Positions 724-23,868 of a stretch of DNA of 23,868 nucleotides are shown here, piece after piece (position 1 is the first letter of the stretch; every line of letters begins with the position of its first letter). Source of the DNA: Saccoglossus kowalevskii (Eukaryota; Hemichordata; Enteropneusta; Harrimaniidae); contig NW_003152270.1 in assembly GCF_000003605.2 (NCBI RefSeq), positions 2,617-26,484 on the forward strand. The letters run 5' to 3'. The position numbers and the translations under genes are program-made. The notes under the pieces were generated by a model. The model ran no database searches, was not told where the DNA came from, and saw only the letters and a program-made list of their open reading frames with translations.

Positions 724-1348
724 TTATGTACTGGCTTGAAGCACATGGTCAACATAATTAGGACCATCAGAGTAATATTCGCAGGTATAGATGGTATACT
801 CATTATTTTTGCGAACCAAACACATTCTATCACGCGTTGAGTCTTCTTCAGGAAGTGACCCCTTCAACTCGATTTGTCAGCGATGAACAAGAACATTAAT
901 TTAAGGAATCAGAGGAGAACAGTTTGAAACACAATATCAAAAAATAGACACACACAACAATCTCACAATAAATGTGTTCTTACATTCCACACAATTCAGT
1001 TATTTTGTAAATGGCTTTGCATTATTAAATCAAATTCAAACAATCCGTCATAGCAGTTTTAATACTAAAATTGTCAGTGGATTTAATTTATATATTATAT
1101 ATTAAAAAAAACGAAATGTATAAATGGTACAATAATCAAACCATCACAACACCCAACCCGCAATGCTAGCTAAACAGTTTTTTACTACGATTGTGTTGAT
1201 GCTTTTACGCTTATTGTGGTTTATATTGACATGCGAATAATCATAGCAGGATACTCACCACAATTTTACAAACAAATTGACACCACGCCTCTCCTATTCC
1301 ATCGACCTCACATAGTTGACAATTGTCAGTTGGCACCGCTACAGTTCC
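724..1348 (-). pseudogene. Broken copy A of the secreted cysteine-rich protein gene
   Basis: Two exons of the family are recognisable. The 30-codon middle exon (1348-1259) keeps its acceptor (TTTTACAG before GGAACT), its donor (GTGAGT) and an open frame with four cysteines, including the Trp-Cys pair shared with copy B. The last exon (about 884-724) still encodes the CLVRKN and YTIYTCEYY motifs and ends in TAA at 724-726. However, about 23 bases covering its splice acceptor and first six or so codons are missing compared with B and C, and a further one-base gap creates a TGA in the old frame. The signal-peptide exon is absent: homology to copy B stops near 1498 inside the following intron, where a repeat block begins. 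I judge it a pseudogene. A rescued splice form elsewhere cannot be excluded but would need a new first coding exon. Confidence 0.8.
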
Positions 1349-1579
1349 CTGTAAAACATTGTATGTCGATATATACATTTTTTTTAGTTAATATGAAACA
1401 GAATAATAATAACAACCTTTTAGGCCACTATATTAAAAAAATATTGTTTATTACGCAGTATGAAATTATCTCTTTTTCAGAGAATTGCCCTCGTTAGGTA
1501 ATTGCCCAGTTAACGTCTATTTCACAGTGCTACATATGTGTCCGTAATATGACGACTATAAGTCATCAGTCATATTTTT

Positions 1580-2760
1580 AGCATTTTTCATTACCTTATA
1601 ATCTGTTAATCCCTGTATCTTTCTGTTTGGCAAGACATGTCAGCTAAATTGTTTTGTCATTGTTCATCAAAAGTCAAGGTAAACTACAAGTTAGAAGTTT
1701 GTTTTACCTAAGACAAATAATTAATACATGTATATGTGAAATTAAAATGCTGAAACATAATTGATTATATATTTTGATGACCTTATAGTGATACTACCAC
1801 TTATTACCAGCATATTTGTTTTGAATTGCGCTGACATCAACCAAACCATTTTCGTCACAGGGGTGTCAGCAGTCATTCCTTAAAAAAATTTCAAGAAACA
1901 CAATATTTTGAACTATTTGGAGGATTCACTTAAAACAAAATAATTCAACCCAAGATTAAATAACATGGAAAATTAAAGAAATGACATTTTTGTGAGAAAG
2001 TGAGCAAAACATACTGAAATAAACAACGAAAAATGGTCTAACCTTTAGCTTTTTCGTTGAGCTCTCAAAAGTCCGGTATGTGTATGATTTACATGCCACT
2101 ACTATCATTCGTCTCTCAAGTATTTTTTTAAATTTAGTATTATTGTAAGTTGTAAAAATGTTTTAGTTATTTTTAATTTCGCTGTCAACAACTAAATTTA
2201 TCACATGGATTTTGAAAAAACACCAATATATTATGCATTATATTACATACTATTTAGAAGAATAATTAGTTTGAAATTGTATTAAATCTAAATGGAAAAC
2301 ACCATGAATCATACCAGTCAAAACATTAGCAAAAACATACCTCTCCCATAAATAGTTTAACCTTATTTAAATGAGAGAATCATTTTAATATGGTGGGGTC
2401 ATCACGAAAATCCTGCGGATTATCCCCGTCTGGATCTTTTATTTGGTGACGAAATTGTTTAAAAAGAGCACGCAAATTGTCTTTTCATTGCGTTTTAATT
2501 GTACCTTTAAGATCAAAATCATATCAAACTCTTGCGTGGTGTTATTTACTTGTGCTGTTTTAATTTCTAATAGTAGGTAAGATTGATACAATTGTTCCAC
2601 TGGCAAATAATTTCGCCACACCTGCTTTAGAACGTCACTGCTCAAGGATAAAGTGGACTCGTTTTTGCAATTATATTTCAAAATAAAAAAAATAGAATCT
2701 GCTGTGATTATTCTGTGAACATTTCAGAGCTCTGTCATAAACGGAATGTGCACATATTTT
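1580..2760. repeat. R1 unit 1 (type a, with ~150-bp insert)
   Basis: First of three tandem units, measured from the AGCATTTTT landmark. It shares sub-blocks with the other units, for instance GCTGACATCAACC near 1830 and the stretch from 2150 to 2700. About 150 bases between roughly 1978 and 2125 have no counterpart in the other units, which explains its 1,181-base length against about 1,037. It resembles unit 3 more than unit 2 around 1820-1960. Short minus-strand frames inside it, such as 2681-2439, are broken by stops in sister units, so I do not call a gene. Confidence 0.75.
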
Positions 2761-3797
2761 TAGCATTTTCGTTACCTTTTAATCTTTTAATCCTTGTATC
2801 TTTCTGTTTGGCAAGACATGTCAGCTAAATTGGTTTGTCAGTGTTCATAAAAAGTCGAGGTAAGCAGCAAGGTAGAAGTTTGTTTTACCTAAGATAAATA
2901 ATTAATTAACTGTATATATACAATTAAAATGCTGAAACATAATTGATTATATATTTTGATGACCTTATAGTGATACTACCACTTATTACCAGCATCTTTG
3001 TTCTTATTTAGGATTGCGCTGACATCAACCAAGCCATTTTCATCACAGGGGTGTCAGCAGTCCTTACTTGGCAAATGTTCAAGAAACACAATATTTTGAA
3101 CTATTTGCAGGATTCACCTAAGATTGAATAACATGGAAGATAGTATTTTTTTAAACTTAATGTTTTTTATTAATTTGTAAAAAAAGCTGTAAAAATGTTT
3201 TAGCTATTTTTAATTTTGCTGTCAACAACTAAATTCATCACATGGATTTTAAAAAAACACCAATATATTTTGCATTATATTACATACTATTTGGAAGAAT
3301 AATCAGTTTGAAATTGTATTAAATCTAAATGGAAAACACCATGAATCGTACCAGTCAAAACATTAGCAAAAACATACCTCTCCCATAAATAGTTTAACCT
3401 TATTTGAATGAGAGAGTAATTTGAATACCTATGGGTCATCACAAGAATACTGCGAAGTACCCCAGTCAAGATCTGTTATTTGGTGTCAAAATTGTTTAAA
3501 AAGAGCATGCAAATTGCCTTTTCATTACGTTTTAATTGTACCTTTAACACCAAAATCATATCAAACTCTTACGTAGTGTTATTTACTTGTGCTGCTTTAA
3601 TTTATAATAGTAGGTAAGATTGATACAATTAATTCACTGGCAAATAATTTCGCCACACCTGCTTTAGAACGTCACTGCCCAAGGATAAAATGGACGCTTT
3701 TTTGAAATTATATTTCAAAATAATAAAATAGAATCTGCGGCGATTATTCTGTGAAAATTTCAGAGCTCTGTCATAAACGGAATGTGCACATATGTTT
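2761..3797. repeat. R1 unit 2 (type b)
   Basis: Second tandem unit, 1,037 bases. Around 3001-3140 it carries the b-type version (TTCTTATTTAG followed by GATTGCGCTGAC), almost identical to the distant unit at 11447 and different from its immediate neighbours on either side. No conserved gene is visible. Confidence 0.75.
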
Positions 3798-4265
3798 AGC
3801 ATTTTTTGTTACCTTTTAGTCTTTTAATCCTTGTATCTTTCCGTTAGGCAAGACATGTCAGCTAAATTGTTTTGTCAGTGTTTATAAAAGGTCGAGGTAA
3901 ACAACAAGGTAGAAGTTTGTTTTACCAAAGACAAATAAATAATTAAATGTATATGTGAAATTAAAATGCTGAAACATACATAATTGATTATATTGTGATG
4001 ACCTTATAGTGGTAGTACCACTTATTACCAGCATATTTGTTTTGAATTGCGCTGACATTAACCAAACCATTTTCGTCACAGGGGTGTCAGCAGTCATTCC
4101 TTGAAAAATATTCAAGAAACACAATATTTTGAACTATTTGCAGGATTCACATAAGACAAAATAATTTAACCCAAGATTAAATAAAATGGAAGACAGTATT
4201 TGTTTAGAACGTCACTGCTTAAAAATAAAGTGGACGCTTTTTTGCAATTATATTTCAAAATAAAT
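3798..4265. repeat. R1 unit 3 (type a, internally deleted)
   Basis: Third tandem unit, truncated. After about 4195 the sequence jumps from the middle of the unit to near its end, leaving about 470 bases. It has the a-type version around 4030-4190, like unit 1. It is followed by the tail GTGCACATAAGTAAAAGGTGAC, also seen after the unit at 11447. Confidence 0.7.
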
Positions 4266-4912
4266 GTGCACATAAGTAAAAGGTGACAATATCATTATTA
4301 TTATGAGCCTGTGCTCACTAATTTCAAAACACTTGACATAACTTCGTGTTAAGCATAAAGTTTATTGTTTCTTTTAACTGACATGACGTGTACTATACAC
4401 TTTTGTATTCTTTACGGCTTAAGTAAAACGATCTATGTTTTATTTCTACATTGATCATTAGGCGTCCTTGTCAAGATATGTGTACAGTTATTTAACAAGA
4501 TTTAATTCAGTAGACCTAGAATCAAATCCAGTTGTAGTTGATACAACCCATGATTCAACATAGTCAAGGTCTTATGAAAATGCATATTAGAAGACAATAG
4601 ACAAATATATACTTCAATGTAGAAGATATACTGTTAAATAGCAGAAATAGATGATCTTAGTTGGTAACTGAAATATCCCGGACAAGTAAGATTGAAAATT
4701 GAGGAATTTTCACTATGTTATTTAAAGTGGAACATACAGAGTACTTTGGTATGTATTATTGATAAACAACACCAACTATTGTGTGGGAAATATGATTCCA
4801 CCTTGTTGCCCAGCTACCAAGAGATACGACAATGGTAATCAGTTACGCTGTATTTGAACCAGTTTAACTCGTCATGGTCCCGACGCTTGATTTGACATTT
4901 TGATACTGACAG
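4266..4912. other. Unique tail between the R1 array and the exon remnant
   Basis: No gene is visible. The sequence parallels 12480-12912, except that about 215 bases near 4363-4580 are present here and absent there. All frames contain frequent stops. It probably represents intron or intergenic sequence upstream of the terminal exon that follows. Confidence 0.5.
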
Positions 4913-5039
4913 ACACACGTTTGAAAGATCAACTTTTTTTGTAGATTATATGTATGTAGCAGGAATACACTGCACTAAACCAAACAGCCGAGTTGGTAGA
5001 GGCTTTTGTTTATGCACCGTTTGGAGGTTTGGTCTATAG
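4913..5039 (+). pseudogene. Broken copy of the gene D terminal exon
   Basis: This region aligns with the intact exon at 12921-13160. It keeps a DYMYV-like stretch, the SRVGRGFCL motif and the upstream splice-acceptor context (ACTGACAG). About 65 bases near the exon start are missing. Homology then ends near 5027, where the frame runs into TAG at 5037-5039, so the last two thirds of the cysteine-containing end are gone. The fragment is therefore a dead duplicate of the D exon, made by the same segmental duplication that copied the R1 block. Confidence 0.65.
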
Positions 5040-5806
5040 AGATGTCTCGATGATTCGCAAATCATAGTCGAATCTTGTATCGAATCATTCCCGAAAAAGC
5101 TGATTAATTTTGGGAAATAAGAATGCATGTTCTTTGGAGTTAAATAAATGCATTTCCATTTTATTTATTAAGAACATTATACAACATAATATTAGAATTT
5201 TGTTTTGACATCATAGATCACATTGCACAGCTTTCAGCTTTGATGTGTTATTTAACTTAACTTAACATTAAAGTGTCTGTGAAATGCCCACCCACACATT
5301 TCCCATTTGGGATTTGTGTTTCACTGAATTAGACAGTTATTGTTTTTTTGGTTGAAAATGATTACTCGGATCAGAGTCAATTCAAAAATGTTTTTGTGTT
5401 GTAGCCTAGCCCACCTAAGAGTCTACGGTTTCCGATGATAAACCATGGTCTTCACATGATGTCAACACCCAATCATAAGATTTATGTCAGACACGTGATT
5501 TGTAGGTATATAAGGCAGAAGTCTACAATGGCAATTCATTCTACGCTGGACTAGCCACGGTTAAGTTTTCCTCGAACCTTTTTAAGTCGTGTAATTTACT
5601 AGTATTTTGGTCTGGATGAAACCCGACATCCACCCTCTGGCGCACATGACAAGGTGACGGGTGTAGGTTTCCAGCTGTATCTTTCCACAAAGCGTTTTTT
5701 TTGTTTTTTTTTCTGGGCAGTCTGTGTGCTAAAAGGGGATATACATTAGTGTATAATTGTTTTCAGTTTCGTTGCATTATAACTGTTTGTTCTTAGTTGT
5801 TCTTAG
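5040..5806. other. Intergenic region with promoter-like patch
   Basis: No coding frame is supported. The stretch contains a CCAAT/E-box/TATA arrangement near 5469-5513 and a T-rich run at about 5694-5712. I find no second copy of it in the window. A solo LTR or a remnant 5' end of a mobile element is possible, but I could not identify matching TG...CA ends with a target duplication. Confidence 0.4.
5469..5513 (+). promoter_or_regulatory. Core-promoter-like CCAAT and TATA pair
   Basis: CCAAT at 5469-5473, a CACGTG E-box near 5492 and TATATAA at 5507-5513 lie in the order and spacing typical of a RNA polymerase II promoter on the plus strand. Initiation would be expected about 30 bases downstream, near 5540. 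No open reading frame follows closely, so the transcript, if any, is unknown; an LTR promoter is an alternative. Confidence 0.35.
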
Positions 5807-5908
5807 AACATAGCAATCAGTTTCAACAACAGGACCAAGTCTATATGACGAAATCCACCTGAGAATTAACAATTGATAACGATGCAGTATAATGTCATAA
5901 TAACATCA

Positions 5909-5914
5909 TTTATC
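5909..5914 (-). promoter_or_regulatory. Mutated poly(A)-signal position of gene B
   Basis: At the position where copies A and C read AATAAA on the minus strand, copy B reads GATAAA. If the site is the ancestral poly(A) signal, B has lost its canonical form. Confidence 0.4.
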
Positions 5915-6378
5915 ACAGAGTTATCGATATATGAAGTTAACTATTTTTATCTCCGGTACATGTACTTGAAGGCAACTATTTCTGCGCATGCATAGTTGGT
6001 ATACACGTACTTTTCAAATAATTACATAAATTTGGAGATTTGGTGTTTTAATTTTATTCGCCTGATCATTCTATACAGATAATATTAAATTATTCCCATT
6101 ATTTCCCAATTTATATTATATATCATCCTACATATGCAGTATGCGAAAGTGTACGGCGTAAATTTGGATGAATTATATTGACTCTCAGTCAGGTTATATA
6201 ACATTTATTTTTGTTATAGATTAAAACATTTATTTTAATTCCATCATGCGGTTCATTTCATTTAGAACATTTGTGTACATTTCAAATGATCTTAGTCTAA
6301 TACGCGAACTGAGTGAACCGTGCAGCTGATATCATGTATACTTGTTATATTAAAGCATGTGGTCAACAGTAAAAAGTT

Positions 6379-6390
6379 AAGTCCCATCTT
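6379..6390. repeat. Target-site duplication, left
   Basis: AAGTCCCATCTT matches AAGTCTCATCTT at 7465-7476 with one mismatch. The same 12 bases occur once, uninterrupted, next to the stop codon of copy A (about 710-722), which shows the empty site. Confidence 0.8.
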
Positions 6391-7464
6391 CGGGCAAATG
6401 GTTTCAATCACAGAAAGATATCTCGGAGCAAGCTAATAAAGCACTATTGTGTTTGAAAAACAAACATTATGGGGTTGGGGGGACTGCAGCCTGATCTTGC
6501 ATGCAATGTATTTGACTGTAATATATTGCTAATTTTGTTATATGGTAGTTGTGTGTGGGGAATGCGGGGTGTAATAGCTGGCATAGAAAAAGTACAAAAT
6601 AAGTTTTGTAAATTTCTATTGAGAATTAGTTTCAACACTTCCAATGCTACAGTAAGGGGTAAAATAAGAGACACTCAGTTAGAGTTAATGTTAATATTGA
6701 AATGGTCAAATTTTGGCTGAAACTGAATCAAGAGGGTGGTTCAGCTATTTTAAAGGACTGGTATAATTATCTATACAATAGGGCAGAAGGGGGATCTAGG
6801 TGTTGGGCTTTAGAGGTAAAATATACATCTGGATATGGACATCTATGGTATGAACAAAGAATTGATAATAGCAAGATGTTCTTCAGTGAACTTAAAAGAA
6901 GATGTATTGATATATCTAGACAGAATTGCCGTGCAGAAATTAATAAAAATGTAAAGCTTCAAACGTATTGCATGTTTAAACAAGATTTAATATGTGAAAG
7001 ATATCTTGCTACTTTTTCGTTGGCCACTCCTATCTATTCATGTGCTATAACCAGACTTAGAATTTTCTGTCATCTCCTAGAAATTGAAAATGGTAGAACA
7101 TTAGATATTCCACGTGACCAAAGGTTATGTCCGTTTGGTTGTAGGGTCACAGAGGACGTATACCATTTTACTATGGTTTGTCCAAAATATGAAGCACTTA
7201 GACAAAAATTCTTACCAAAATATTATTTTACACCACCAACCAAGATGAAATTCATTGCATTGCTACTGAGTACTAACTCGTATATTTTATTAAGTTTGGG
7301 TAAATATTTGTTTAAGAGTTTTTATTACAGATAAACTGAAATGGAAGTATAATTTGAAGTATATGTATCTTGTAATTTTAAAGCGACCGAGTGTAATTTT
7401 AGTTTTGAAATGTAACAGTACCGCTAGGCCGGTGGTCATATAGTGCTGAATAAAGAATAATAAT
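6391..7464 (+). mobile_element. 5'-truncated non-LTR retrotransposon
   Basis: The 1,074-base insert is bounded by a 12-base target-site duplication. It ends in a short A-rich tail (GAATAAAGAATAATAAT), and its only coding content is the downstream end of a reverse-transcriptase ORF. Severe 5' truncation, a variable target duplication and an A-rich 3' end are the hallmarks of target-primed reverse transcription. The closely related copy A lacks the insert, so it arrived after the A/B duplication. It sits antisense to gene B, with the duplicated target ending one base from the stop codon. I cannot assign the clade with confidence from this C-terminal piece. Confidence 0.85.
6393..7334 (+). pseudogene. 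C-terminal part of a non-LTR reverse-transcriptase ORF, frameshifted
   Basis: The reading starts with a KWFQSQKDISEQANKALL stretch typical of the region after the RT palm and thumb. It continues with a LLYGSCVWG motif and an IEKVQNKFCKFLLR stretch, and ends in a zinc-binding-like CPFGC...EDVYHFTMVCPKYEALR tail, where the ORF-final Cys-Cys-His-Cys pattern of these elements is expected. The frame shifts near 6475 in a G-run and again near 6700, just before MVKFWLKLNQ. After the second shift the frame is open for 210 codons to TAA at 7332-7334. The catalytic YxDD part of the enzyme and any endonuclease are missing, so the piece cannot be active. Confidence 0.8.
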
Positions 7465-7476
7465 AAGTCTCATCTT
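7465..7476. repeat. Target-site duplication, right
   Basis: AAGTCTCATCTT, the right copy of the duplication flanking the retrotransposon. It is identical to the empty site in copy A. Confidence 0.8.
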
Positions 7477-7477
7477 T

Positions 7478-8850
7478 CTATGCAATGGCTTGAATAACAT
7501 GGACAACGTAATCAGGATCATCAGAGTAATATTCGCAGGTATAGATGGTATACTCTACATTTTTGCGAACCAAACACATTCTATCACGCGTTGCGTCTTT
7601 TACAGGAAGTGTCACATTTATCTCGATTTGCTCGGCGATGGCTGATGGGCAATCCTATATATGAACAGAAACATTAATTTAAGGAATCAAAAAAGAACAT
7701 GATGAAACGCAACAACAAACAAACCCACACGACAATTTCACAACAAATGTTTTCTTACATTCCACACAATTCAGTTATTTTGTAAATGACTTGCATCAAT
7801 ATCAAATTCAAACAATCCGTCATAGCAGTTTCAATTTTCCAGTGGATTTAATTTATATATTATATATTAAAAAAACAAAATGAATAAATGGTACAATAAT
7901 CAAACCATTGCAACATTCATTCCCCATTGCTAGCAAACATCTTTGCACTATGATTACGTTGCTGATTTTATGCTTACTGTAGTGTTTGATGATGACATAT
8001 CAACAATCATCGCAATATACTCACCACAATTGTACAAACCATTTGACACCACGAGTTTTCTATTGCACTTATCTCACATCGTTGACAATTGTCAGTTGGC
8101 ACTGCTCCAGTTCCCTGTAACACAATGTATGTCGATTTATACAACGTTCTTTTGTTTATATAAAAGAGAATAATAATAACAACCTTGTTAAGCCGCACAT
8201 GAATTTCTGTATGAATTTTTATGTATGAATTTCTCTCTTTTTCAGTGAATTGCCCTCGTTAGGAGTTTATGACATTCTTTGAAACCCATTCAACTGTGAG
8301 AGTCTAGTTCAGTGTCTACATACAAACCTGAACAATCCTAAGTGAGAACCATCGCTTTCTCACACAAGAACAAAAACAGCCCGTCAGAAATCACTGTTTC
8401 TATCACACACAGTCACATATTGGGATATTCAAATATGACAATTTACACTAATATTCCACTAAACATACTACCCGTTAGTTGTTTCAAAATATCAATAATG
8501 TAACAGAAGAATACTAAATAACATACTATATCATCATTTTTAATGAAGCCAATTCGTGATGCGAGTATTGCGTCATACTCATAGTGACGTGTACCAGGTA
8601 TAAATGCTGCATTTCCATAATAAAATGTTCCAATAAATCTACTATCTTTCCCCTCAATAGTATTTTCAATGTCTACTATATGAAGTGGGCAGGAAAAGTC
8701 CTCAGTGCATACACTATGCCCTACTCCATTGTCATACAGGACATCATTACAATCCGTGCAAGTGCCATTAGCAGGGTTTCCAGGGTGATGCTGAGCAATT
8801 GATGTAACTGTCATCATGATCATACCCCAAAATGAAAGTGATAAAAACAT
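7478..8850 (-). CDS. Secreted cysteine-rich protein, copy B (three coding exons)
   Basis: Spliced by hand: exons 8850-8527 (108 codons), 8114-8025 (30 codons) and 7654-7478 (58 codons plus TAG). Donors are GTATGT and GTGAGT; acceptors are GTTACAG and CATATATAG; both introns (412 and 370 bases) are phase 0. An acceptor, ATTTCCAG, lies two bases before the ATG, so an upstream untranslated exon is expected. The 196-residue product starts with a signal peptide (hydrophobic SFWGMIMMTV, likely cleavage after residue 19), then has an NGT sequon at 28-30. It has eleven cysteines (31, 34, 48, 54, 118, 121, 131, 135, 140, 165, 178). Residues 54-121 loosely recall an NTR/TIMP-type fold, which is inference only. 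It is about 69% identical to copy C in the first exon. An antisense retrotransposon lies directly after the stop. Exact function and family are not recognised. Confidence 0.82.
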
Positions 8851-8856
8851 CCCTGG

Positions 8857-8960
8857 AAATAAATAAATAAATAAATAAATAACGAACAACGAACGAACAA
8901 AGAACTAAAGTGAAAGCGAACAAACAAATAAATAAAGACATATTGAATGAACGAAGGAAT
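8857..8960. repeat. Simple repeats (AAAT)n and (GAAC)n-like
   Basis: AAATAAAT tandem copies are followed by interrupted GAAC/AAAC tetranucleotides. They lie immediately upstream (minus strand) of the acceptor before the gene B start codon; the T-rich minus strand forms its polypyrimidine tract. Copy C has a tetranucleotide microsatellite at the same place. Confidence 0.75.
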
Positions 8961-9114
8961 AATGAACAAACGAAGAAATATGATACAAAGAATAGAGAGA
9001 AATGATTGTTCAGAATAACTTTGATTGCAGACGTAGTAAATATATATTAGTTGAAGAATGTTTGTATTGAAAGAGCCTACCTTGACCTCTCAGATCAAAT
9101 TACGTCGGGAATTT

Positions 9115-9707
9115 GACAAGTTCATTGGAGCTTGAACCAATCATAGCTAGTGTCTCAGATCACATTATCTATGTGTTCGTATTGACATGCATAGGCATAA
9201 TCGTATTCAGGTTTGGTGTGTATAGAGGGAAAAGGTAATTATTTGTTTATCCAGATTTATCGAAATTCAGTGTCATCGAATGGGATATATTTTTTCCAAA
9301 GCTAATAGATGAAAAGTTCATTGGAGATTAAACCAATCATAGATAGTGTCTCAGACCACATTATCTATATGTTCGTATTGACATGCATTGGCATAATCGT
9401 ATTCAGGTTTGGTGTGTATAACGGGGAAAGATAATTATTTGTTTTTTTCTTCAGTTTTATCCAAATTCAGTGTCATCGAATGGTATATATTTTTTCCAAA
9501 GCTAATAATTGACAAGTTCATTGGAGCTTGAACCAATTATAGATAGTGTCTCAGACCACATTATCTATGTGTTCGTATTGACATGCATAGGCATAATCGT
9601 ATTCAGGTTTGGTGTGTATAAGGGGGAAAGATAATTATTTGTTTATCCAGATTTATCGAAATTCAGTGTCATCGAAAGGTATATATTTTTTCAAAGCTAA
9701 TAATATC
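9115..9707. repeat. Three tandem ~198-bp units
   Basis: Three near-identical units begin at the landmark TTCATTGGAG at 9121, TTCATTGGAG at 9317 and TTCATTGGAG at 9517, giving periods of 196 and 200 bases. Each contains ACCAATCATAG or a close variant, TATTGACATGCAT and AGTGTCATCGAA. The third ends near GCTAATAATAT. They lie upstream of gene B on its strand, probably in its first intron or promoter region. No coding frame spans them. Confidence 0.85.
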
Positions 9708-11350: not shown

Positions 11351-11446
11351 TTGCAAGCCCAGTTAACGTCTATTTCACAGTGCTACATATGTGTTCGTAA
11401 TATGACTACTATAAGTCATCACTTATATATACATATCCATATTTTT

Positions 11447-12480: not shown

Positions 12481-12920
12481 CATAAGTAAAAGGTGACCAA
12501 ATGTCATTATTATTATTATGATCATGTGCTCACTTATTTCAAAACACTTGACATCACTTCGTGTTTAGCATAAAGTTCATTATTTTATTAGAAGACAATA
12601 GACAAATATATACTTCAATGCAGAAGATATACTGTTAAATAGCAGAAATAGATGATCTTAGTTGGTAACTGAAATATCCCGGACAAGTAAGATTGAAAAT
12701 TGAGGAATTTTCACTATGTTATTTAAAGTGGAACATCCAGAGTACTTGGGTGTGTGACTTGATATACAACACCAACTAATATGTGGGAAATATGGTTCCA
12801 CCTTGTTGCCCAGTTACCAAGAGATAAGACAATGGTAATCAGTTACGGTGTCTTTGAACCAGTTTAACTCGTCATGATCCCGACGTTTGATTTGACATTT
12901 TGTTACCGACAGTCACACAG
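12481..12920. other. Tail before the gene D exon
   Basis: No gene is visible. The sequence parallels 4266-4912. It contains a donor-like GGACAAGTAAGATT near 12683, but every frame before it is interrupted, so I do not call an exon. Confidence 0.45.
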
Positions 12921-13160
12921 CAGGCTGTAAACCTGGATGAAATGTCTTTTGGTTTTACCAATGTTACTACTGCGTTTGAAAGATTAACTTTTCTTGTAGA
13001 TTATGTGTATGTAGAAGAAATACACTACGCTGAACCAAACAGTCGAGTTGGTAGAGGCTTTTGTTTATACAACGTTCGAGGGAGAGAAATTACTTCTGTG
13101 AAGTTATCTTGCAATTTCAACTGCGTAAAAGTGGATTGTCAATATTTTGCTACTAAGTAA
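12921..13160 (+). CDS. Terminal exon of an unrecognised gene (gene D)
   Basis: An open frame of about 79 codons ends in TAA at 13158-13160. Acceptors lie at 12911-12912 (ACCGACAG) and, in phase 0, at 12919-12920 (CACACAG), so it is best read as a last exon rather than a whole gene; there is no ATG near the left edge. The product has an NVT sequon, a DYVYVEE stretch and four cysteines (GRGFCL, KLSC, NFNC, VDC) before FATK. The FCL context echoes the last exon of the A/B/C family (RDRFCLVRKN), hinting at distant kinship, but the alignment is short and may be chance. Upstream exons were not found. A broken duplicate lies at 4913-5039. The intact frame here, against a broken sister, suggests it may still be in use. 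Confidence 0.45.
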   Translation, partial: QAVNLDEMSFGFTNVTTAFERLTFLVDYVYVEEIHYAEPNSRVGRGFCLYNVRGREITSVKLSCNFNCVKVDCQYFATK

Positions 13161-13820
13161 TTTTTAATGTGATTTCGTATCACAACCATTCTAACTCGAA
13201 TAACAATTATTTTTTCAATTCATTCAAGCGCCATCATTCACGCACTTGTCCTCGACGCGTTCACCCATTTCAACATTTCAAGTTCGTGATTTACTAACCA
13301 TGGACTCATTATATCATTTTTGTTTATCATTTCTCCATTTCATTGATAGCCATAGTTCAATCTTCAGAATGTTAACAGATTTTCTCTTATTTCAATTTTG
13401 CATCAGTGTATGAACATCCCCAGTAGCCTGACAAATAACTAGAAGAAAAGCCAGACGTCAAACCCGACTTTGACAAAAAAAATCAAAATAGCCATAGAAA
13501 TCGTGGAGAGTTCCGTGGCCAATATACGTCGGCACTTCAACTGACCATCGGCCACAATACAAGTGACTCTGATTGTGCAGTACAGCTACCCGCGGCGACC
13601 AGCTACAGAAGGGATATATTTCGTATCTAACTCAACCCTATATGTGTTCTTTATGGTTCACTCTTCCCCGAGAAACAAGTACTTGATTATATACTTAATA
13701 ACATAAACAATTATAATATTGATGTTCCAATAAATGATTTGAGGCCAGAAAATAGCAGGCATTTCACAGGCATTTTTATTTAACCCGTCATAGCTATAAA
13801 TCCGTATGTAGACTCAATAT
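13161..13820. other. Intergenic, with a GC-richer patch
   Basis: Mostly AT-rich and without coding signal. Between 13439 and 13630 one plus-strand frame is open for 63 codons without a start codon, in sequence visibly richer in G and C than its surroundings. The protein resembles nothing I know. Confidence 0.4.
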
Positions 13821-14395
13821 TTAATTACATCATTATAACCATTGTCATGTCTAAAACACAATAATTAACAAGTCGTCTTTAAATCACACTTCACGCACCT
13901 CGAATAATCAAAAAAATACTTATGCAAAAAAGGATAGGAATACCAGAAATGTGTATATTGTTACTCTTCTCGGGGAACGTTCATTCGAAGATTTTATCCT
14001 GTCGAGCAGACGAAGCACTTACATATTCCCGAATGAACAATGCACAAAAGTTGTGTTTTCAAGAGTTGGTCAATGTTCTTGACATCATTTTTTTTTATGT
14101 AACGTAATAGACAAACCTTACAGGTCTTCTTGTACCTCGGTGTCAGAGTTATTCCACTAGATAATTATTTTCCGTGCTGTTATTCTGAATATGATAATTG
14201 TCTGAACAATGGATGACAGTTTTTGTCGCGTGCTATGTAAATTATTTATGACGTTAAAAAATATTTTAGTCGATAAATTTTGAAATAGTAATAGCAAGTC
14301 GGAACAATTGTGGACAGAGCGTAATCAGTGGTGCTAATGCGATGACCCAAGCCCCATCCAACAAGATATACAAAACAAACACATTCTGCAATTGT
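13821..14395 (+). repeat. Left arm of a long imperfect inverted repeat
   Basis: Segments here occur in reverse complement and in reverse order at 16665-17154. Examples are CAAGTCGTCTTTAAATCACA at 13869 against 17082-17101, the ATAGTAATAGCAAGTCGGA stretch near 14286, and AATGCGATGACCC near 14337. The left arm holds an extra stretch within about 13960-14190. Homology may extend outwards to about 13795. Neither arm has a conserved coding frame. Confidence 0.75.
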
Positions 14396-14914
14396 TAGGT
14401 AACTGATGTACAGTTGGCTCGTACTTCCCAAAGGTTATAAACTCTTTATCTTAAAGGTCAAGTCTCTATGGCGTGGTAGAGTGAACATGCGATCAGCTAT
14501 TCGCACGATCACGTGATTACCTGGATTTAAAGCCCTGCGAAGTTGTTATACTAAATACAATAAGTAAACACTCTATTTATCAAATTCCTCAAATTTTTGT
14601 TTATAATGTCTATCTTAAACATGCATGTAGTTGATTGTAAACAATAGTGCAAATGCACGTGAACTGATTGTGCAAAAGGGAAGTCATCATAACAAAAGTC
14701 TGACCAGGCACAACTGAGAACAACATTTAACACATTACGGTAGTCTAAGAATTCATTTAAAAAATAGTGTCGCTATTTGGCAAAGTTGAACCAAATTTCA
14801 AAACACTGCTATACATCAATAACTCACCTTGAGTATGATCAAATACAAGTAATAAAATCGGACTGTTTTAGGGAGTGACAATATTATTCTTTGTAACTAA
14901 AATAATTATATCTG
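14396..14914. other. Inverted-repeat spacer left of mariner
   Basis: No gene or repeat is recognised between the left arm and the mariner 5' end. The minus-strand frame at 14733-14551 has no supporting signal. Confidence 0.4.
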
Positions 14915-14937
14915 CTAAAAATCGTTGAATGTTTTGT
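14915..14937 (+). repeat. Mariner 5' terminal inverted repeat (diverged)
   Basis: CTAAAAATCGTTGAATGTTTTGT compares with the complement of the 3' end, CAAGGGGCGTTGAATATTTAAT, with the core CGTTGAAT exact. The left boundary is uncertain by several bases. Confidence 0.55.
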
Positions 14938-15102
14938 AGAAAACCTTCGCGGTTTAACAGTTGTTAAAAAAATGCTACGACTTTTCAAAAAAAAAAGTTT
15001 CCCATGTACTACAGGTATAGAATATCGAATGAGGTAGAACATATATACCAAAATAGATAGGAGTGAGAAGTATACTTCTACAGAGACGTAAACAGGTGTG
15101 AA

Positions 15103-16062
15103 ATGGAACCAATTGAGTGTCGCGCAGTGATCCATTTTTGTATTTGAAAGGACACACACCAAAGGAGTCTTTTGATGAAATGAAAGAAACTTATGGTGAT
15201 GATGCCCCATCATATGACCTTGTAAAACGCAGGGATCGTGAATTCAAACATGGTCAGAAGTCTGTGGAAACAGCTCCCAGACCTGGTCGTCCCTTTCTGC
15301 CATTGATGAGGCACTTGTCCGTCAAGTTGAGGCAGCCATTTTGAGAGATCGACGCATTACTGTTCGCCAAATATCTCAAGAGATCAAGATTAGTACAGGG
15401 TCTGTGGAAACTATCATTCATGACTATTTGCATATGTAAAAGGTGTCTGCCAGATGGATTCCCAGGTTGCTCATACCTTTCCAGAAGCAAGAACGCGTCG
15501 AGTGTTCGAGGATGAATTTGGAGATGTGCCAAGAAGATGAGTTTTTCAAAAGACTGATTACACAGGATGAAACTTGGGTCCATCACTATGATCCAGAGAC
15601 CGAATCCCAGTCAATGTAGTGGAAGCACTTGGACTTACTACCTCCAAAGAAGGCAAGGATTCAGCCCTCCACTGGAAAGGTCATGCTCACAGTCTTCTGG
15701 GACCAGGACGGAGTAGTGATGACAGATTTCCTGGCAAAAAGTACCACAATTACATGAGCCTATTACGCTTCACTTATATCAAGAGGCAGGGCAAGATCAA
15801 CAAAGGTATCCTCCTCCTGCAGGACAACGATCTGACCCACAATTCGCCAGGTCAGAAGCACTGGCATGTGACTATGAAATCCTCCCCACCCTCATTACTA
15901 CCCTGACCTTGCACCCTCTGACTTTCATCTCTTCCCAGCCACGCAGTTGTTTTTGAAAGGAAAGCGTTTCCCAAATGATGCAGCCTTGACATCAGAAGTT
16001 ACGACGTGGTTGGAGGACCAACCCGGAGCTGCATCAAACGATGGGAGAAATGCATAACATAA
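15103..16062 (+). pseudogene. Mariner transposase, inactivated
   Basis: The ATG at 15103 starts MEPIECRAVI, the usual opening of the N-terminal helix-turn-helix region; after a one-base loss near 15130 it continues FLYLKGHTPKESFDEM and SVETAPRPGRP. After a shift near 15290 comes a second helix-turn-helix (RRITVRQISQEI), then a stop at 15437-15439. The catalytic region follows with TQDETWVHHYDPE, a stop at 15617-15619, WDQDGVVMTDFL, a shift near 15745, LLLQDNDLTH, another shift near 15890 and PDLAPSDFHLFP. All three acidic positions of the DD34D triad are therefore still readable, but the frame is broken at least four times and has two stops. TAA at 16060-16062 is the likely original end (WEKCIT). 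The protein is not made in functional form. Confidence 0.88.
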
Positions 16063-16093
16063 AAATCTTCTGCTATGGGAAATGGTCAGATGC

Positions 16094-16115
16094 ATTAAAT
16101 ATTCAACGCCCCTTG
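16094..16115 (-). repeat. Mariner 3' terminal inverted repeat
   Basis: Read on the minus strand it is CAAGGGGCGTTGAATATTTA, close to the widespread mariner end pattern with AGGGGCGTT. TA follows at 16116-16117. Confidence 0.65.
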
Positions 16116-16117
16116 TA

Positions 16118-16664
16118 GGTGAATGTAAAATGATTTAGATTCTGTAAATTAAGTTTCATGCGCAGCCGGTATTTATTTAACATGTTAACTACTGGAATCG
16201 TTTTAATGTTTAAATCAATGAAAATAATAGAGTTGATAATATAATATATTATTATACATCTGTCACAGTAACGCCATAAGTTACAGCGTGCCGTAATTTT
16301 GCGGTATTGCACTGTGTATTTTCATCCTAACATATTTGGAAACGCGAATTTGAAATATGGAACGATTACGTGTGTAAGCGTCCTTTTATAATAAAAACAA
16401 ACATGGCTACTCCCAGGGTTTGACTGATCCCCACACAAAGAAGTTCGCTAAATCTGTTCTAAACGTTTTGGGTTTCGGCATTTCCATGATGTATTTCTGG
16501 GAGGAGAGGATGTATAATAATAAGGTTATTACGAGGATATGCACGAATACAGTACGCAGTCGCATCGACCTCCACTGCACGTCAGTCGAAACTCCCGCTG
16601 TACTGTCTTCGTCTTCGAACTTAATAATATAATGTTAACCAAAATCCTAGTAAGGAATACAAAT
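16118..16664. other. Inverted-repeat spacer right of mariner, with a 70-codon frame
   Basis: The only open stretch of note is on the plus strand at about 16423-16632 (TDPHTKKFAKSVLNVLGF..., GISMMYFWEERMYNN). It looks like a small membrane protein start: a basic N-terminus and a short hydrophobic segment ending in WEER. An ATG in good context at 16403 opens MATPR but hits TGA five codons later in a different frame. It might be a decayed small gene or chance; I do not recognise it. Confidence 0.25.
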
Positions 16665-17154
16665 GCAAAATAGGTTTGCTTTTGTATATTTTGTTAGATG
16701 CTGTTTGGGTCATCGCATTGGCATGACTGATAACCGACTGTCCACAATTGTCCCAACTTGCTATTACTATTTTGCACATTTATCATTTGAATTTCATAAA
16801 TAATGGAGTTGCCACACTTTCATCCCTGTCACTAGTGTCATTTGACATCGTCGGGCAATACGGACAATTAGCATATTCAGAACAACAGGTGGCTATATTT
16901 ATCTATCAATCAACCCTTCTTCGAGTGAGCGTACGTCAACACCAATATTACTGTATCCCATCCTTTTTGCATATTTATTTTCCAAAATGTATTTCTGAGT
17001 TTGCGCGTTGAGTAATTATCGAAGTAGAGGCTTGCTCTTTGACATTCTATGTTTAACAACATAATTAATAGCAGTGAAGTGTGATTTAAAGACGACTTGG
17101 TAATATTGCGGTTTACATATGTCAATAGCTGGCGTTATAATAATGTAATTAAAG
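16665..17154 (-). repeat. Right arm of the long imperfect inverted repeat
   Basis: Reverse complement of 13821-14395 with many substitutions and indels. Shared landmarks include GTGATTTAAAGACGACTTG at 17083-17101 and, on the complement, CAATGCGATGACCCA near 16712. It may extend to about 17185. The minus-strand frame at 17125-16910 is not preserved in the other arm. Confidence 0.75.
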
Positions 17155-18350
17155 AGTGAATGTATAAACGAATTTACAACTGGATGATGGTCGTACGTCA
17201 ATGACTATCAACTCAGCTGTTTGGTTTAGAGATTATTGTAATGAAATTCTCTATTTGAGTAGTACATATGGATTACCCTAAAAAATATCTTAACTTACTG
17301 TAATTGCTTCGTCCAATTAATTCACCACAGCAAAGCTAAGCTAGGTGTATAATAATAATAATTATTGTGCAGTATAACGAACATCGACAGCTATATACTC
17401 ACGGACATAGATTACAAATCAAGTCTAGATTCAACACAGGTTCAGATCTGGTGGGTCTAATTCAATTTTATTGCAATTAGCGACAATGAAAAACATGTGG
17501 TGTTTTGTAATCATATGTTCTGTTACTGTGGTACGTTGGGCCAATGAGTGCTATACACTCATCCCATTCAGATGAGTCGGATTTCACTTTATGGAAAACC
17601 ATACAAGCCATTGCTTTTTCAATCTCATATTTCTAGAACTAGAATAAACATTTTTTCCTTGGTCAATCCTAGTAGCTTATCTGATTCAGAAATTACATTT
17701 ATCGTCATCTATGTATGAAGTAATCCAATATCATAATTACCTATTTTTCACCTTGTGTATGTTGATCAGTACCTCTTTAATGTTTATGACAGATGTAAGT
17801 ATCTTGCAACTCAGCTTAGTAGCATTATGCAAATTCGGTTTTACTGTTTTTAACACAAGCATTATGTGTTTCAATAAGCCTCATTTTACTCATTTCTATT
17901 TCTCTACTAGCAAAACAGTTAATAAGGATCATTTACACACTCTTTACACTGAAGACAGGGTGGGAATTCTTACAAGCCATCAAAAGCGAATTCCAGCCCA
18001 TTAGCTTGGCAGTTCCCAACCACAGATCCTACAGGCGTCATTGGTATGAGCAGTTTTTCCAAGTATTGTAACTTTTCTTAGGAATGTTCATATACAAGCC
18101 ATGACAAATATGGACATTCGCCCATGATTATTCCTAGCAGTGAGCAGTGACATATATATATATTTCACAAAGGTAATAATGTAAAGCTCTTTGCAAGTCA
18201 CATTAAGCTTATGCTGCTGTTCGCTCTGTGTTTTTCTATGCAACGCATTACTTTTCACTTTGCTATCTTGAAGATTAGCTAATCAATACCTAATACCCTT
18301 GTTATTAACAAATATCTGAAATATTTAATATACTGTGAACTGACTGATCA
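17155..18350. other. Mostly featureless AT-rich region
   Basis: No gene can be supported. The 97-codon frame at 17711-18004 is hydrophobic, low in complexity and without recognisable motifs; I do not call it. A 29-codon frame at 17486-17575 with a signal-peptide look is listed separately. Confidence 0.4.
17486..17575 (+). CDS. Tiny frame with signal-peptide-like start (tentative)
   Basis: The ATG has an A at -3 and opens MKNMWCFVIICSVTVVRWA, a plausible signal peptide with a cleavage-like A at residue 19, then NECYTLIPFR and TGA. A donor-like GTACGT lies inside at 17530, so it could instead be the first coding exon of a longer secreted protein. No continuation was found downstream. Chance is quite possible. 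Confidence 0.15.
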   Translation: MKNMWCFVIICSVTVVRWANECYTLIPFR

Positions 18351-20040
18351 CTCGGCAAGCCCTCACCCCTTTAATGTGAACAATGGCTTGAACTTTTCAT
18401 CCTAATCAAACTTCTGTTTTGCCTACTAGCTCATGAATGGTTCTTGCTACAAGCGCAACTGTATTTGAAGAACACCTATAAGGCAACCTGAGATATGTTT
18501 TACTCGTATCAGCATATCAGTGGCCTTCGATTTTGTTACAGTCTTCACTTTGTCTAGATTATACTTAAAATTCAGCAAGGTGTTTAATTGCTTTTGTGAT
18601 AGCGTTTTCATATTACCCTGTCAAATTCATTTATCTGAAAATCATTAGTGTGAACTCCCGTCAAGTTATGACTCGTGGTCACCCATAAGATAATGATTGC
18701 ATCCAATATTAAAATAAAGATGACGGACTATAACGTTAATTCATCTCGTTCTATTCTGGATTATTTAGAGCACATAAATATCTAAATATTTATATAACTG
18801 TGTTTTTTTATTTTTGCAATGTATTTGACATGTCTAATATGTTACTCCTTGTTTTGCATATTGTCTGTATCACAGTTCCTGTGGGTTTCTGGTGTAATCC
18901 GTTATAGCTGTTGAGGGCACTGCAGCTGGTCGACAACCAGTTATGCTCTTGTATTCAATAACTGAATTTTTAATAGAAGGAATTGATTGTTTCTTATTGG
19001 CAATTAATACCAGAATATTGATGATAAAACTCAAAACATTACAACATAGTTCATTACATAACTGACTGTCCGAACTTAGACTTTAAATGTTTATTCATGC
19101 CAGGGTACTTACCCTGTGTTTTATTCGGAGGGCCATGTAATTTGCAAATCCTGGCTATGTGCTTGAATTGATCTCAATGAACTTCGGTTTAATACGTAAC
19201 TGATCGTCAAATCTCGGACTTTAATTGTGCATGTAAACCCGGGTACTAACCCTGTGTTTTTTTGAATGGCCATGTAATTTGCAAATCCTGGCTATGTGCT
19301 TGAATTGATCTCAATGAACTTCGGTTTAATACGTAACTGATCGTCAAATCTCGGACTTTAATTGTGCATGTAAACCCGGGTACTAACCCTGTGTTTTTTG
19401 AATGGCCATGTAATTTGCAAATCCTGACTATGTGCTTGAATTGATCTCAATGAACTTCGGTTTAATACGTAACTGATCCTCAAATCTCGGACTTTAATTG
19501 TGCATGTAAACCCGGGTACTAACCCTGAGTTTTTTGAATGGCCATGTAATTTGCAAATCCTGGCTATGTGCTTGAATTGATCTCAATGAACTTCGGTTTA
19601 ATACGTAACTGATCGTCAAATCTCGGACTTTAATTGTGCATGTAAACCCGGGTACTAACCCTGTGTTTTTTGAATGGCCATGTAATTTGCAAACCCTGGC
19701 TATGTGCTAAAATTCGTCTCAAATCACTATGGTTCATTACGTAACTGACCGCCCAATTTCACTGTGCATTCAAGCTACAGTAATGACCCTGTGTTTTTCC
19801 AGAGGACCATGTAATTTGAAAACCCTATCTTTGTGTTAAAATTAGTCCCAATTGGACTTTAATTGTGCATGCAAACCAGGGTACCGACCCCGTGTTGTTT
19901 CTGTGTTGCACCTTGTAATTTCCAAACCCTGGTCCAATTCACATTGGGTAATATGTAACTGACTGTCACAATTTTGACTTTAATTGTGTACGAGAACCAG
20001 CAGCAGGGGCCATATATATGTCCTTCGAATATACAGTACA
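18351..20040. repeat. 1.69-kb tandem unit 1
   Basis: This 1,690-base unit starts at CTCGGCAAGCCCTCACCCC and is repeated immediately at 20041 with very few substitutions. Its first ~650 bases are unique sequence and the rest is a 136-bp satellite array. No coding frame is supported; minus-strand frames inside are products of the repeat. Confidence 0.9.
19103..19785. repeat. 136-bp satellite array in unit 1
   Basis: The landmark GGGTACTAACCCTG recurs at 19241, 19378, 19514 and 19650, with a variant at 19103 (GGGTACTTACC). Spacings are 138, 137, 136 and 136. The central units are nearly identical; those towards 19770-20010 are strongly degenerate (landmarks near 19773 and 19879), as is the stretch before 19103. 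This is the usual pattern of homogenised centre and decayed edges. Confidence 0.9.
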
Positions 20041-21733
20041 CTCGGCAAGCCCTCACCCCTTTAATGTGAACAATGGCTTGAACTTTTCATCCTAATCAAA
20101 CTTCTGTTTTGCCCACTAGCTCATGAATGGTTCTTGGTACAAGAGCAACTGTATTTGAAGAACATCTATAAGGCAACCTGAGATATGTTTTACTCGTATC
20201 ATCATAACAGTGGCCTTCGATTTTGTTACAGTCTTCACTTTGTCTAGATTATACTTAAAACTCAGCAAGGTGTTTAATTGCTTTTGTGATAGCGTTTTCA
20301 TATTACCCTGTCAAATTCATTTATCTGAAAATCATTAGTGTGAACTCCCGTCAAGTTATGACTCGTGGTCACCCATAAGATAATGATTGCATCCAATATT
20401 AAAATAAAGATGACGGACTATAGCGTTAATTCATCTCGTTCTATTCTGGATTATTTAGAGCACATAAATATCTAAATATTTATATAACTGTGTTTTTTTT
20501 TATTTTTGCAATGTATTTGACATGCTTAAGATGTTACTCCTTGTTTTGCATATTGTCTGTATCACAGTTCCTGTGGGTTTCTGGTGTAATCCGTTATAGC
20601 TGTTGAGGGCACTGCAGCTGGTCGACAACCAGTTATGCTCTTGTATTCAATAACTGAACTTTTAATAGAAGGAATTGATTGTTTCTTATTGGCAATTAAT
20701 ACCAGAATATTGATGATAAAACTCAAAACATTACAACATAGTTCATTACATAACTGACTGTCCGAACTTAGACTTTAAATGTTTATTCATGCCAGGGTAC
20801 TTACCCTGTGTTTTATTCTGAGGGCCATGTAATTTGCAAATCCTGGCTATGTGCTTGAATTGATCTCAATGAACTTCGGTTTAATACGTAACTGATCGTC
20901 AAATCTCGGACTTTAATTGTGCATGTAAACCTGGGTACTAACCCTGTGTTTTTTTGAATGGCCATGCAATTTGCAAATCCTGGCTATGTGCTTGAATTGA
21001 TCTCAATGAACTTCGGTTTAATACGTAACTGATCGTCAAATCTCGGCCTTTAATTGTGCATGTAAACCCGGGTACTAACCCTGTGTTTTTTGAATGGCCA
21101 TGTAATTTGCAAATCCTGGCTATGTGCTTGAATTGATCTCAATGAACTTCGGTTTAATACGTAACTGATCGTCAAATCTCGGACTTTAATTGTGCATGTA
21201 AACCCGGGTACTAACCCTGTGTTTTTTGAATGGCCATGTAATTTGCAAATCCTGGCTATGTGCTTGAATTGATCCCAATGAACTTCGGTTTAATACGTAA
21301 CTGATCGTCAAATCTCGGACTTTAATTGTGCATGTAAACCCGGGTACTAACCCTGTGTTTTTTTGAATGGCCATGTAATTTGCAAACCCTGGCTATGTGC
21401 TAAAATTCGTCTCAAATCACTATGGTTCATTACGTAACTGACCGCCCAATTTCACTGTGCATTCAAGCTACAGTAATGACCCTGTGTTTTTCCAGAGGAC
21501 CATGTAATTTGAAAACCCTATCTTTGTGTTAAAATTAGTCCCAATTGGACTTTAATTGTGCATGCAAACCAGGGTACCGACCCCGTGTTGTTTCTGTGTT
21601 GCACCTTGTAATTTCCAAACCCTGGTCCAATTCACATTGGGTAATATGTAACTGACTGTCACAGTTTTGACTTTAATTGTGTACGAGAACCAGCTGCAGG
21701 GGCCATATATATGTCCTTCGAATATACAGTACA
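20041..21733. repeat. 1.69-kb tandem unit 2
   Basis: Second copy of the preceding 1,690-base unit, ending at AATATACAGTACA. Only scattered single-base changes (for example CCTACTAGC to CCCACTAGC near its start) and changes in T-run length separate it from unit 1, so the duplication is recent or an assembly effect. Confidence 0.9.
20793..21476. repeat. 136-bp satellite array in unit 2
   Basis: Landmarks at 20794, 20933, 21070, 21206 and 21342 repeat the array of unit 1 with the same number of units. The whole 1.69-kb block was therefore copied together, not by independent expansion. Confidence 0.9.
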
Positions 21734-22357
21734 TTGAGTATGTTGTCCACAGAAACCCAGAATAAATCTAGACATTACTTTAGACATTCAGTTATTAATA
21801 ATGCAAAAAAGATGCAGTATAATGTCATAGTAACATCATTTATTGCACAGTTATCGACATATGAAGTTAACTTTAACTATAATTATCCTAGATACATGTA
21901 ATTTAAAAGTGAAGGGTATTATTTGCGTGCATTCGGTATACATAATTCTTAATAATTACAGTTAATTTGATCTAAATACTGCCAGAGTGGCTTTCTGATA
22001 TATGACTGGAGAATTGGTGTTTTGATTCCACTCAATAATTCCCAACCTATGATCTATCGCATCCTACATATACAGTATGCTAAAGTGTACAGCGTCCAAG
22101 ACATAACTTGTATGGACTCCCAATCGGATTGAACAACATTCTATCAAACATTCATTTTTGTTCTAGAATAAACCCTTCATTTGACTTGTACAGGAATTAA
22201 AATATATTTAGTCCTATATGCAAACGGAGTAGACCTTGCAACTGATAACGTATAATTGTTGAAGCACGTGGTCTACAGTACGAAGTTATCCAAAACTACG
22301 CAATGAAAAGTACCTAACTATTGATAACTGGCACAAAGATAATTAATTGCCATCTTT
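21734..22357 (-). other. 3' flank and putative 3' UTR of gene C
   Basis: From about 21805 to 22357 the sequence aligns with the flanks of copies A and B. The putative poly(A) signal lies at 21839-21844, about 515 bases after the stop codon. No coding frame is credible. Bases 21734-21804 join this flank to the tandem 1.69-kb units. Confidence 0.5.
21839..21844 (-). promoter_or_regulatory. Putative poly(A) signal of gene C
   Basis: AATAAA on the minus strand, placed about 30 bases inside the edge of the homology shared by the three gene copies. Confidence 0.45.
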
Positions 22358-23698
22358 CTATGTACTGGCTTGAATCAGATCGTCAACGAAATTAGGATCA
22401 TCAGTGTAATATTCGCAGGTATAGATGGTATACTCGTCATTTTTGCGAACCAAACAGAATCTATCACGAGTTGAGATTTTCTCAGAATGTGTCGCTAATA
22501 ACTCGATCTCTGTGGCGATGGCTGATGGACAATCCTATATGTGAACAAAAACATTGATTGATGGAATCAGAGAAGAAAATGTTGAGACGCAATAACAAAT
22601 AAACATATACGACTGTTTCCCTACGAATGTTTTCATTCCACACAATTTAGTTACTTTGTAAATGACTGCATTATTTCAAGCAGTATTAGTATATCAAACA
22701 TTTAAAGTGTAAAATATGGTATTATACATTTAAAAATGAAGTAAATAAGTGGTACAATAATCAAACTATCACAACACCCAACCTTCTCTCTCTTTTTTCC
22801 CCTACGATTGTGTTGATGCGTTTTTGCTTATTGTAGTGTATGTTTACAAAGAAATAAACATTGCAGGTTACTCACCACAATTGTACAAACAAATTGGACC
22901 CATGCGTCTTCTATTTCGTCGACCTCACATCGCTGACAATTGTCAGTTGGCACTGCTACCGTTCCCTGTAAAACAATGTATATCGATATATACAAAGTTG
23001 TTTTAGTTAATATGAAACATAATAATGAAAAACCTTGTTACGCCACAATATTAGAAAATGTTGTTCATTATGCAGTATAAATTTCTCTATTTAGTGAATA
23101 TATCTCGTTAGGAGGCTATGACTTTCTCCAAAACACTTCAACCCATGCTGCAAGGCTTAGTTTAGTACCAAATTTGTCTTAAAGTCCTAAGTGGGAATCA
23201 TTGCTTTATCACACAAGAACAAAACCAGCCCAGTTTCTATTGCACACAAATGCACATTGTGATATTAAATTATGACTTTTGACAGAACTGTTTCACTAAA
23301 TATATTGCTTGTGTCAAAACATCAATAATGTTTTACTTGAATGTGCAAAATTAGCGGAATTCAAAATAACGTACTATATCGCCCTTTTTAATGGAGTCGA
23401 TTCGGTCTGCGAGTATTTCCACATATGCATAGTGACGTGTACCAGGCACGAATGCTGCATTGCCATAATAATATGCTGCATGGAACATAACTTCTTTTCC
23501 CTCAATAGTATTTTCAATATCTGCTATGTCAAGTGGGCAGGTGAAATCCTCTGTGCATACATTATGCCATACTCCATTGTCGTACATAGCACCATTACAA
23601 TTCGTACAAGTGCCATTAGCAGGGTTTCCAGGGTGATCTTGAGCATGTGATGTCACTGCCATCATGATCAGACCCCAAAATGAAAGTGATACAAACAT
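22358..23698 (-). CDS. Secreted cysteine-rich protein, copy C (three coding exons)
   Basis: Spliced by hand: exons 23698-23375 (108 codons), 22965-22876 (30 codons) and 22534-22358 (58 codons plus TAG). Donors are GTACGT and GTGAGT; acceptors are TTTTACAG and CACATATAG; introns of 409 and 341 bases are phase 0, as in copy B. TTTTCAG lies five bases before the ATG, so a 5' untranslated exon lies beyond the window. The 196-residue product has a signal peptide (SFWGLIMMAV, likely cleavage after residue 19), an NGT sequon at 28-30, and cysteines at 31, 34, 48, 54, 118, 121, 135, 140, 165 and 178. Residue 131 is Val, where copies A and B have Cys. Patterns such as AYYYGN and an EIL...KKGDI...CQRC run loosely resemble an NTR/TIMP-type domain. 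Function is unknown; secretion is the only confident prediction. Confidence 0.83.
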
Positions 23699-23756
23699 GG
23701 TTCCTGAAAATAAATGTATTAAATAAATAAAATCCTGTTTCCTGAGAATAAATACG

Positions 23757-23827
23757 TCAGTCAGTCAGTCAGTCAGTCAGTCAGTCAGTCAGTCAGTCAG
23801 TCAGTCAGTCAGTCAGTCAGTCAGTCA

Positions 23828-23868
<41 letters not shown>
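23757..23868. repeat. Compound microsatellite (TCAG)19 (CCAG)9
   Basis: Nineteen perfect TCAG copies at 23757-23832 are followed by nine CCAG copies to the window edge, where the array continues or is cut. It lies just upstream of the acceptor of gene C, in its presumed first intron. Confidence 0.97.

Follow-up and report, generated by a model that had tools for sequence, protein, structure and literature searches.

A small tandem family of predicted secreted, disulfide-rich proteins in Saccoglossus kowalevskii, with two probably functional genes and one pseudogene

The window analyzed here is the whole 23,868-base stretch at positions 2,617 to 26,484 (forward strand) of contig NW_003152270.1 of Saccoglossus kowalevskii (RefSeq assembly GCF_000003605.2), which has a G+C content of 34.5% and a CpG observed/expected ratio of 0.71 and holds spliced genes together with several classes of repeats. 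We found in it three copies, termed A, B and C, of a duplicated unit of about 2 kb that includes the 3′ flank of a gene; all three lie on one strand, with repeats between them (Table 1). With moderate confidence, we assign them to a family of small disulfide-rich secreted proteins that is unplaced and probably lineage-restricted, and read B and C as probably functional genes and A as a pseudogene. An earlier note on this DNA had proposed a tandem family of an unrecognized secreted cysteine-rich protein, a proposal that is supported by the gene models, by the coding constraint and by null results against Pfam, NCBIfam and PDB.

The two intact copies each encode 196 residues in three coding exons, in agreement with the two complete proteins of the earlier note, and their products align without gaps at 70% identity. 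All introns of B and C are in phase 0 with GT..AG ends, and they measure 409 and 412 bases (intron 1) and 341 and 370 bases (intron 2). The intron 1 donors are GTACGT in C and GTATGT in B, with the respective acceptors TTTTACAG and TGTTACAG; all three copies share the intron 2 donor GTGAGT, and its acceptors in the intact copies are CATATAG and TATATAG. Upstream of the ATG, both genes show a T-rich stretch with CAG (TTATTTTCAG followed by GAACC in C, TTATTTCCAG followed by GG in B), which sets an acceptor-like TTTTCAG five bases and an acceptor-like TTTCCAG two bases before the respective start. Because these acceptor-like stretches directly precede each ATG, the sequence suggests that B and C each possess a further upstream non-coding first exon. 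Scans for open reading frames (ORFs) do miss the gene, as had been pointed out: the list of frames of at least 70 amino acids contains exon 1 of B and C and lacks exons 2 and 3.

Table 1. Positions in the window of the gene copies and of the duplicated units around them
Feature	Position	Strand	Remarks
Copy C, whole coding span	22358-23698	-	three exons giving 196 residues
Copy C, coding exon 1	23375-23698	-	108 codons: predicted signal peptide, first CxxC, C48, C54; donor GTACGT
Copy C, coding exon 2	22876-22965	-	30 codons: second CxxC, C135; phase 0; TTTTACAG / GTGAGT
Copy C, coding exon 3	22358-22534	-	58 codons (22361-22534) and stop codon 22358-22360; CLVRKN.EYTIYTCEYY end
Copy B, whole coding span	7478-8850	-	three exons giving 196 residues
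Copy B, coding exon 1	8527-8850	-	108 codons; donor GTATGT
Copy B, coding exon 2	8025-8114	-	30 codons
Copy B, coding exon 3	7478-7654	-	58 codons (7481-7654) and stop codon 7478-7480
Copy A, exon 2	1259-1348	-	30 codons, whole, with both splice sites, in pseudogene
Copy A, exon 3 remnant	724-879	-	start and intron 2 acceptor deleted; TGA at 877-879; stop codon 724-726
Duplicated unit around A	66-1498		homologous to 5806-8263 and, from 138, to 21808-23112; ends inside intron 1
Duplicated unit around B	5806-8879		interrupted by putative retroelement fragment 6391-7464 between two 12-base near-repeats
Duplicated unit around C	21808-23731		homologous, as far as 23112, to the unit around A (from 138)

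Copy A (724-1498) is a pseudogene, because exon 1, the intron 2 acceptor and the first part of exon 3 are missing. A 24-column deletion has taken the acceptor together with the first exon 3 codons, leaving 38 clean codons at 727-840 and weaker in-frame homology that continues to 876. The homology of A to B and C stops at 1498, within intron 1, and a tblastn search over the window finds exon 1 only in B and C, the next best match having an E-value of 2.8. The earlier attribution of shared exon lengths, intron phases and splice sites to all three copies holds for B and C and fails for A. A repeat of about 1 kb (1504-4265) adjoins the point at which copy A loses exon 1.

The duplicated units are 80-85% alike between A and B, 70% between A and C and 75% between B and C, so A and B are the younger pair; further copies may lie beyond the end of the window. 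Local same-strand duplication of the unit would spread copies and deletion would remove them, in a process of birth and death. The fragment within the B unit lies on the strand opposite to the gene, carries an ORF at 6702-7334 (210 amino acids) and an AATAAT tail, and is bounded by AAGTCCCATCTT (6379-6390) and AAGTCTCATCTT (7465-7476), which differ at one of their 12 bases and constitute a target duplication. From the ORF, the tail and these near-repeats, we take it to be the 3′ end of a retrotransposon without long terminal repeats (non-LTR). Its CPFGC...HF...CP pattern is typical of the ends of long interspersed nuclear elements (LINEs); its ORF retrieved no Pfam family at E-values up to 10 and no pattern match in viral contigs. 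The second near-repeat starts one base past the B stop codon, so the original 3′ flank of B has been displaced, and the nearest AATAAA to that stop codon is 154 bases away.

The reading frames of B and C are under selection, though weakly, because they show no coding indels, fewer amino-acid changes than expected under neutrality and a ratio of nonsynonymous to synonymous divergence (dN/dS) of 0.62 (bootstrap 95% interval 0.41-0.98). Identity between the two copies is 81-83% in the exons and 73% in the introns, and indels number zero in 588 coding columns versus 15 events in 807 intron columns, a rate at which about 10.9 coding events would be expected (P ~2e-5). The 58 amino-acid differences compare with a neutral mean of 70.4 (standard deviation 4.1), a value as low being reached in 2 of 2000 simulations, and 97.65% of the neutral simulations at the B-C divergence gain a stop codon.

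Residues 1-20 of the predicted proteins are signal-peptide-like (15-residue hydropathy at residue 1 of 2.05 in C and 1.73 in B), and the mature chain would comprise about 176 residues, with a mass of 19.6-19.7 kDa and isoelectric points of 4.25 and 4.49. It contains ten tyrosines, and B and C alike carry a glycosylation sequon at N28. All 10 cysteines of C are retained in B (positions 31, 34, 48, 54, 118, 121, 135, 140, 165 and 178), and B has an eleventh, C131, which exon 2 of A also encodes but C lacks. The two CxxC pairs described earlier recur in B and C; all three copies have the CLVRKN.EYTIYTCEYY end, identical except at the dotted position. Of the 73 positions at most five residues from a shared cysteine, 16 differ between B and C, versus 38 of the 93 positions further off. 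We predict that the product enters the secretory pathway, where the loss of some 20 residues would leave an acidic extracellular domain of 176 residues; to judge from the shared cysteines, about five disulfides would hold its fold together. The cysteine framework and its surroundings are slow to change and the intervening stretches evolve faster, as would be expected of a secreted binding protein with loops that meet a varying partner. We infer its function only as far as a secreted, disulfide-held extracellular protein that probably binds a partner, and a role in binding rather than in catalysis or structure is our guess.

The profile searches of the 196-residue product that had been proposed in the earlier note returned nothing from Pfam and chance-level matches elsewhere. 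No Pfam family was listed for either B or C at E-values up to 10, a nominal limit whose real bound is about 0.1, as the HMMER filters drop most matches above that value. NCBIfam gave none for C and a single match for B at 3.4, which we take as chance, as we do the only PDB sequence matches of C, to uromodulin at 6.2 and 9.4. A profile of B and C searched against PDB sequences brought up, at 0.013, a designed helical repeat whose match was assembled from three short and weak stretches, along with uromodulin at 1.7 and flavocytochrome c at 4.3, all judged to be chance. Viral contigs yielded 13 pattern matches to exon 1 of C, 4 to exon 1 of B and 148 to exon 3 of C/B/A, and prokaryotic genome contigs yielded 123 to the B/C alignment and 48 to exon 3; tblastn confirmed none of these in either collection. 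The B/C-alignment search was weak, as it used only two peptide patterns, both taken from the signal peptide or its immediate neighborhood. In the literature, five peptide strings retrieved no paper, and among the titles and starts of abstracts from further searches the protein is named nowhere, supplementary files and most subscription journals being outside their coverage. Rfam at gathering thresholds and ARAGORN recorded no matches over the window.

Several points weigh against reading B and C as functional members of such a family. The genes are predicted from DNA sequence, and the signal peptide and its cleavage site were called from hydropathy and by eye. The constraint statistics come from one sequence pair in total, the overall dN/dS is just mildly below 1 and thus indicates weak constraint, and by exon it amounts to 0.49, 0.48 and 1.17, being highest in exon 3. 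Retention of ten cysteines at 70% identity is not remarkable by itself (P ~0.03), and B could be impaired by the retroelement fragment that begins one base past its stop codon. The searches for relatives covered viral and prokaryotic collections, which say little about animals, so the restriction of the family to one lineage is a presumption.

What the case contributes is a small family of secreted proteins, as yet unplaced, in which two genes are intact and one copy is decaying, along with exact exon coordinates where single-exon ORF scans fail. Animals commonly have secreted cysteine-rich families that are restricted to a lineage and change fast, and the case therefore matters chiefly for the annotation of this genome; it would gain weight if a fold or a role in a tissue (immune, reproductive or adhesive) were shown.

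Among the alternatives to a binding protein, B and C could encode a structural protein or cross-linker for an extracellular material, such as byssus, shell, mucus or egg coat, joined by interchain disulfides, which we consider unlikely. The acidic, tyrosine- and cysteine-rich composition behind a signal-like N terminus agrees with such a role, as does the odd cysteine C131 of B and of A exon 2, but the cysteine number of C is even and inspection by eye reveals no repetitive or low-complexity stretch in B or C. A precedent is the scallop protein Sbp8-1, an atypical TIMP of the byssus in which two free cysteines are reported to cause polymerization (PMC5975577). Like B and C it is small and secreted and has additional cysteines that may be unpaired; unlike them, it is recognizable as a TIMP (PMC5975577).

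We likewise give only a small chance to B and C being highly diverged NTR modules, i.e., the OB-fold barrel of TIMPs and of netrin C termini, acting as inhibitors of a protease or ligand, with the two CxxC pairs standing for the N-terminal cysteines and for the cysteine pair after strand C. By eye, the order C-x2-C-x13-C...C-x2-C is like the C-x3-C-x10-C...C-x2-C of the PCPE NTR domain, and the strand-like GTRHYAYVEI...GTVAVP and YTIYTCEYY are placed as IKRIQYEI...IEFIYTA and MHITLCDFI are in TIMP-2; a local hhalign match to three TIMPs covers the former stretch, at a probability of 0.07%. Compared by eye, the NTR module (PF01759; netrin, PCPE, complement C3/C4/C5) has a similar signal-like N terminus, strand-like segments and an order of cysteine pair, single, pair and later single with which that of B and C is compatible. 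Typical NTR modules have about six cysteines, whereas B and C share ten, i.e., four extra, and the middle stretch from the third to the next NTR-like cysteine spans 69 residues by hand count versus 52 in netrin-1 and PCPE. TIMPs chelate the metalloproteinase zinc through a CxC at the mature N terminus, but that terminus carries no cysteine in B and C, the first being residue 31, about ten past the presumed cleavage site and part of a CxxC.

Neither B nor C is listed by the Pfam NTR and TIMP models at E-values up to 10, and the NTR model as a control finds netrin-1 (3.5e-32), PCPE (9.5e-17) and, below its curated cut-off, TIMP-2 (0.0018). With hhalign against an NTR profile built from six sequences, the score of the B/C profile is equaled by 134 of 200 column shuffles in local mode and 15 of 200 in global mode, and by 168 and 30 of 200, respectively, when the cysteines are held fixed; TIMPs, PCPE, netrin-1 and C3, each compared with the remaining NTR groups, are equaled by 0 of 60. 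The best local alignment (score 10.7) has one aligned column, and the global one pairs the N terminus of B/C with the C terminus of the NTR, which departs from the register seen by eye and is senseless for an NTR domain. The weak NTR/TIMP-like pattern suggested in the earlier note is therefore not upheld: with the Pfam null, scores no better than shuffles and positive controls that pass, we reject membership by sequence, and B and C are by that measure not NTR proteins. A likeness in cysteine order remains, and a relation in fold may exist. Tandem duplication has expanded small secreted cysteine-rich TIMPs in Pteria penguin and Magallana gigas, and five exons are counted in 132 of 142 molluscan TIMPs (PMC10755359). 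The TIMPs and bivalve 'pseudo TIMPs' (PF00965) are alike in being small, secreted, cysteine-rich and tandemly duplicated, and B and C differ in lacking a TIMP match and the mature N-terminal CxC and in having three coding exons versus the five of that count (PMC10755359).

It is quite improbable that the protein arose by internal duplication of a half-size module, seen as CxxC-x13-C-x5-CP in exon 1 and CxxC-x13-C-x4-CP in exons 2-3, in spite of the near-identical cysteine spacings and of the VCT...CP in both halves. In comparisons of half against half, two of the four pairings give shuffle fractions of 0.036 and 0.028 (5000 shuffles), but the remaining two give 0.549 and 0.966, the fractions with cysteines fixed are 0.64, 0.07, 0.98 and 0.06, and an intron splits the second half and not the first; these mixed results do not appear convincing. 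We regard as very doubtful the further proposal of a new disulfide-rich secreted fold built from two such duplicated half-modules (CxxC-x13-C-x4/5-CP), in a family expanding in tandem in one animal lineage. That all copies are decaying, functionless duplicates whose open frames in B and C are leftovers is highly improbable, since A being a pseudogene already, the retroelement fragment in the 3′ flank of B and the dN/dS near 1 in exon 3 are set against the stop codons gained in 97.65% of neutral simulations and the roughly 10.9 coding indel events expected and not seen.

The remaining repeats of the window are of several kinds. The repeat of about 1 kb that occurs in successive copies at 1504-4265 returns some 8 kb away at 11357-12585 (85-91% alike), and a stretch common to both sites follows at 4585-5021 and 12586-13076 (82%). 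Upstream of copy B, a 200-base unit is repeated three times in tandem (9113-9704), and the last bases of the window (23756-23868), directly upstream of copy C, are a (GTCA)n tract that turns to (GCCA)n. A decayed mariner-type transposon occupies 14283-16772, with inverted ends 83% alike over 114 aligned bases (93-nucleotide arms by another analysis), a Mos1-type HTH_48 domain (E-value 5.4e-06) and many stops in the translated frame; it is flanked by an outer inverted-repeat pair at 13797-13894 and 17074-17176 (79% alike), perhaps belonging to a host element that it entered. A 1.69-kb tandem duplication at 18349-21733, 98.5% alike, holds 4.7 copies of a 136-base repeat in each half, and these arrays are, by description, reminiscent of the satellite-like arrays on oyster Helentrons (PMC7492417).

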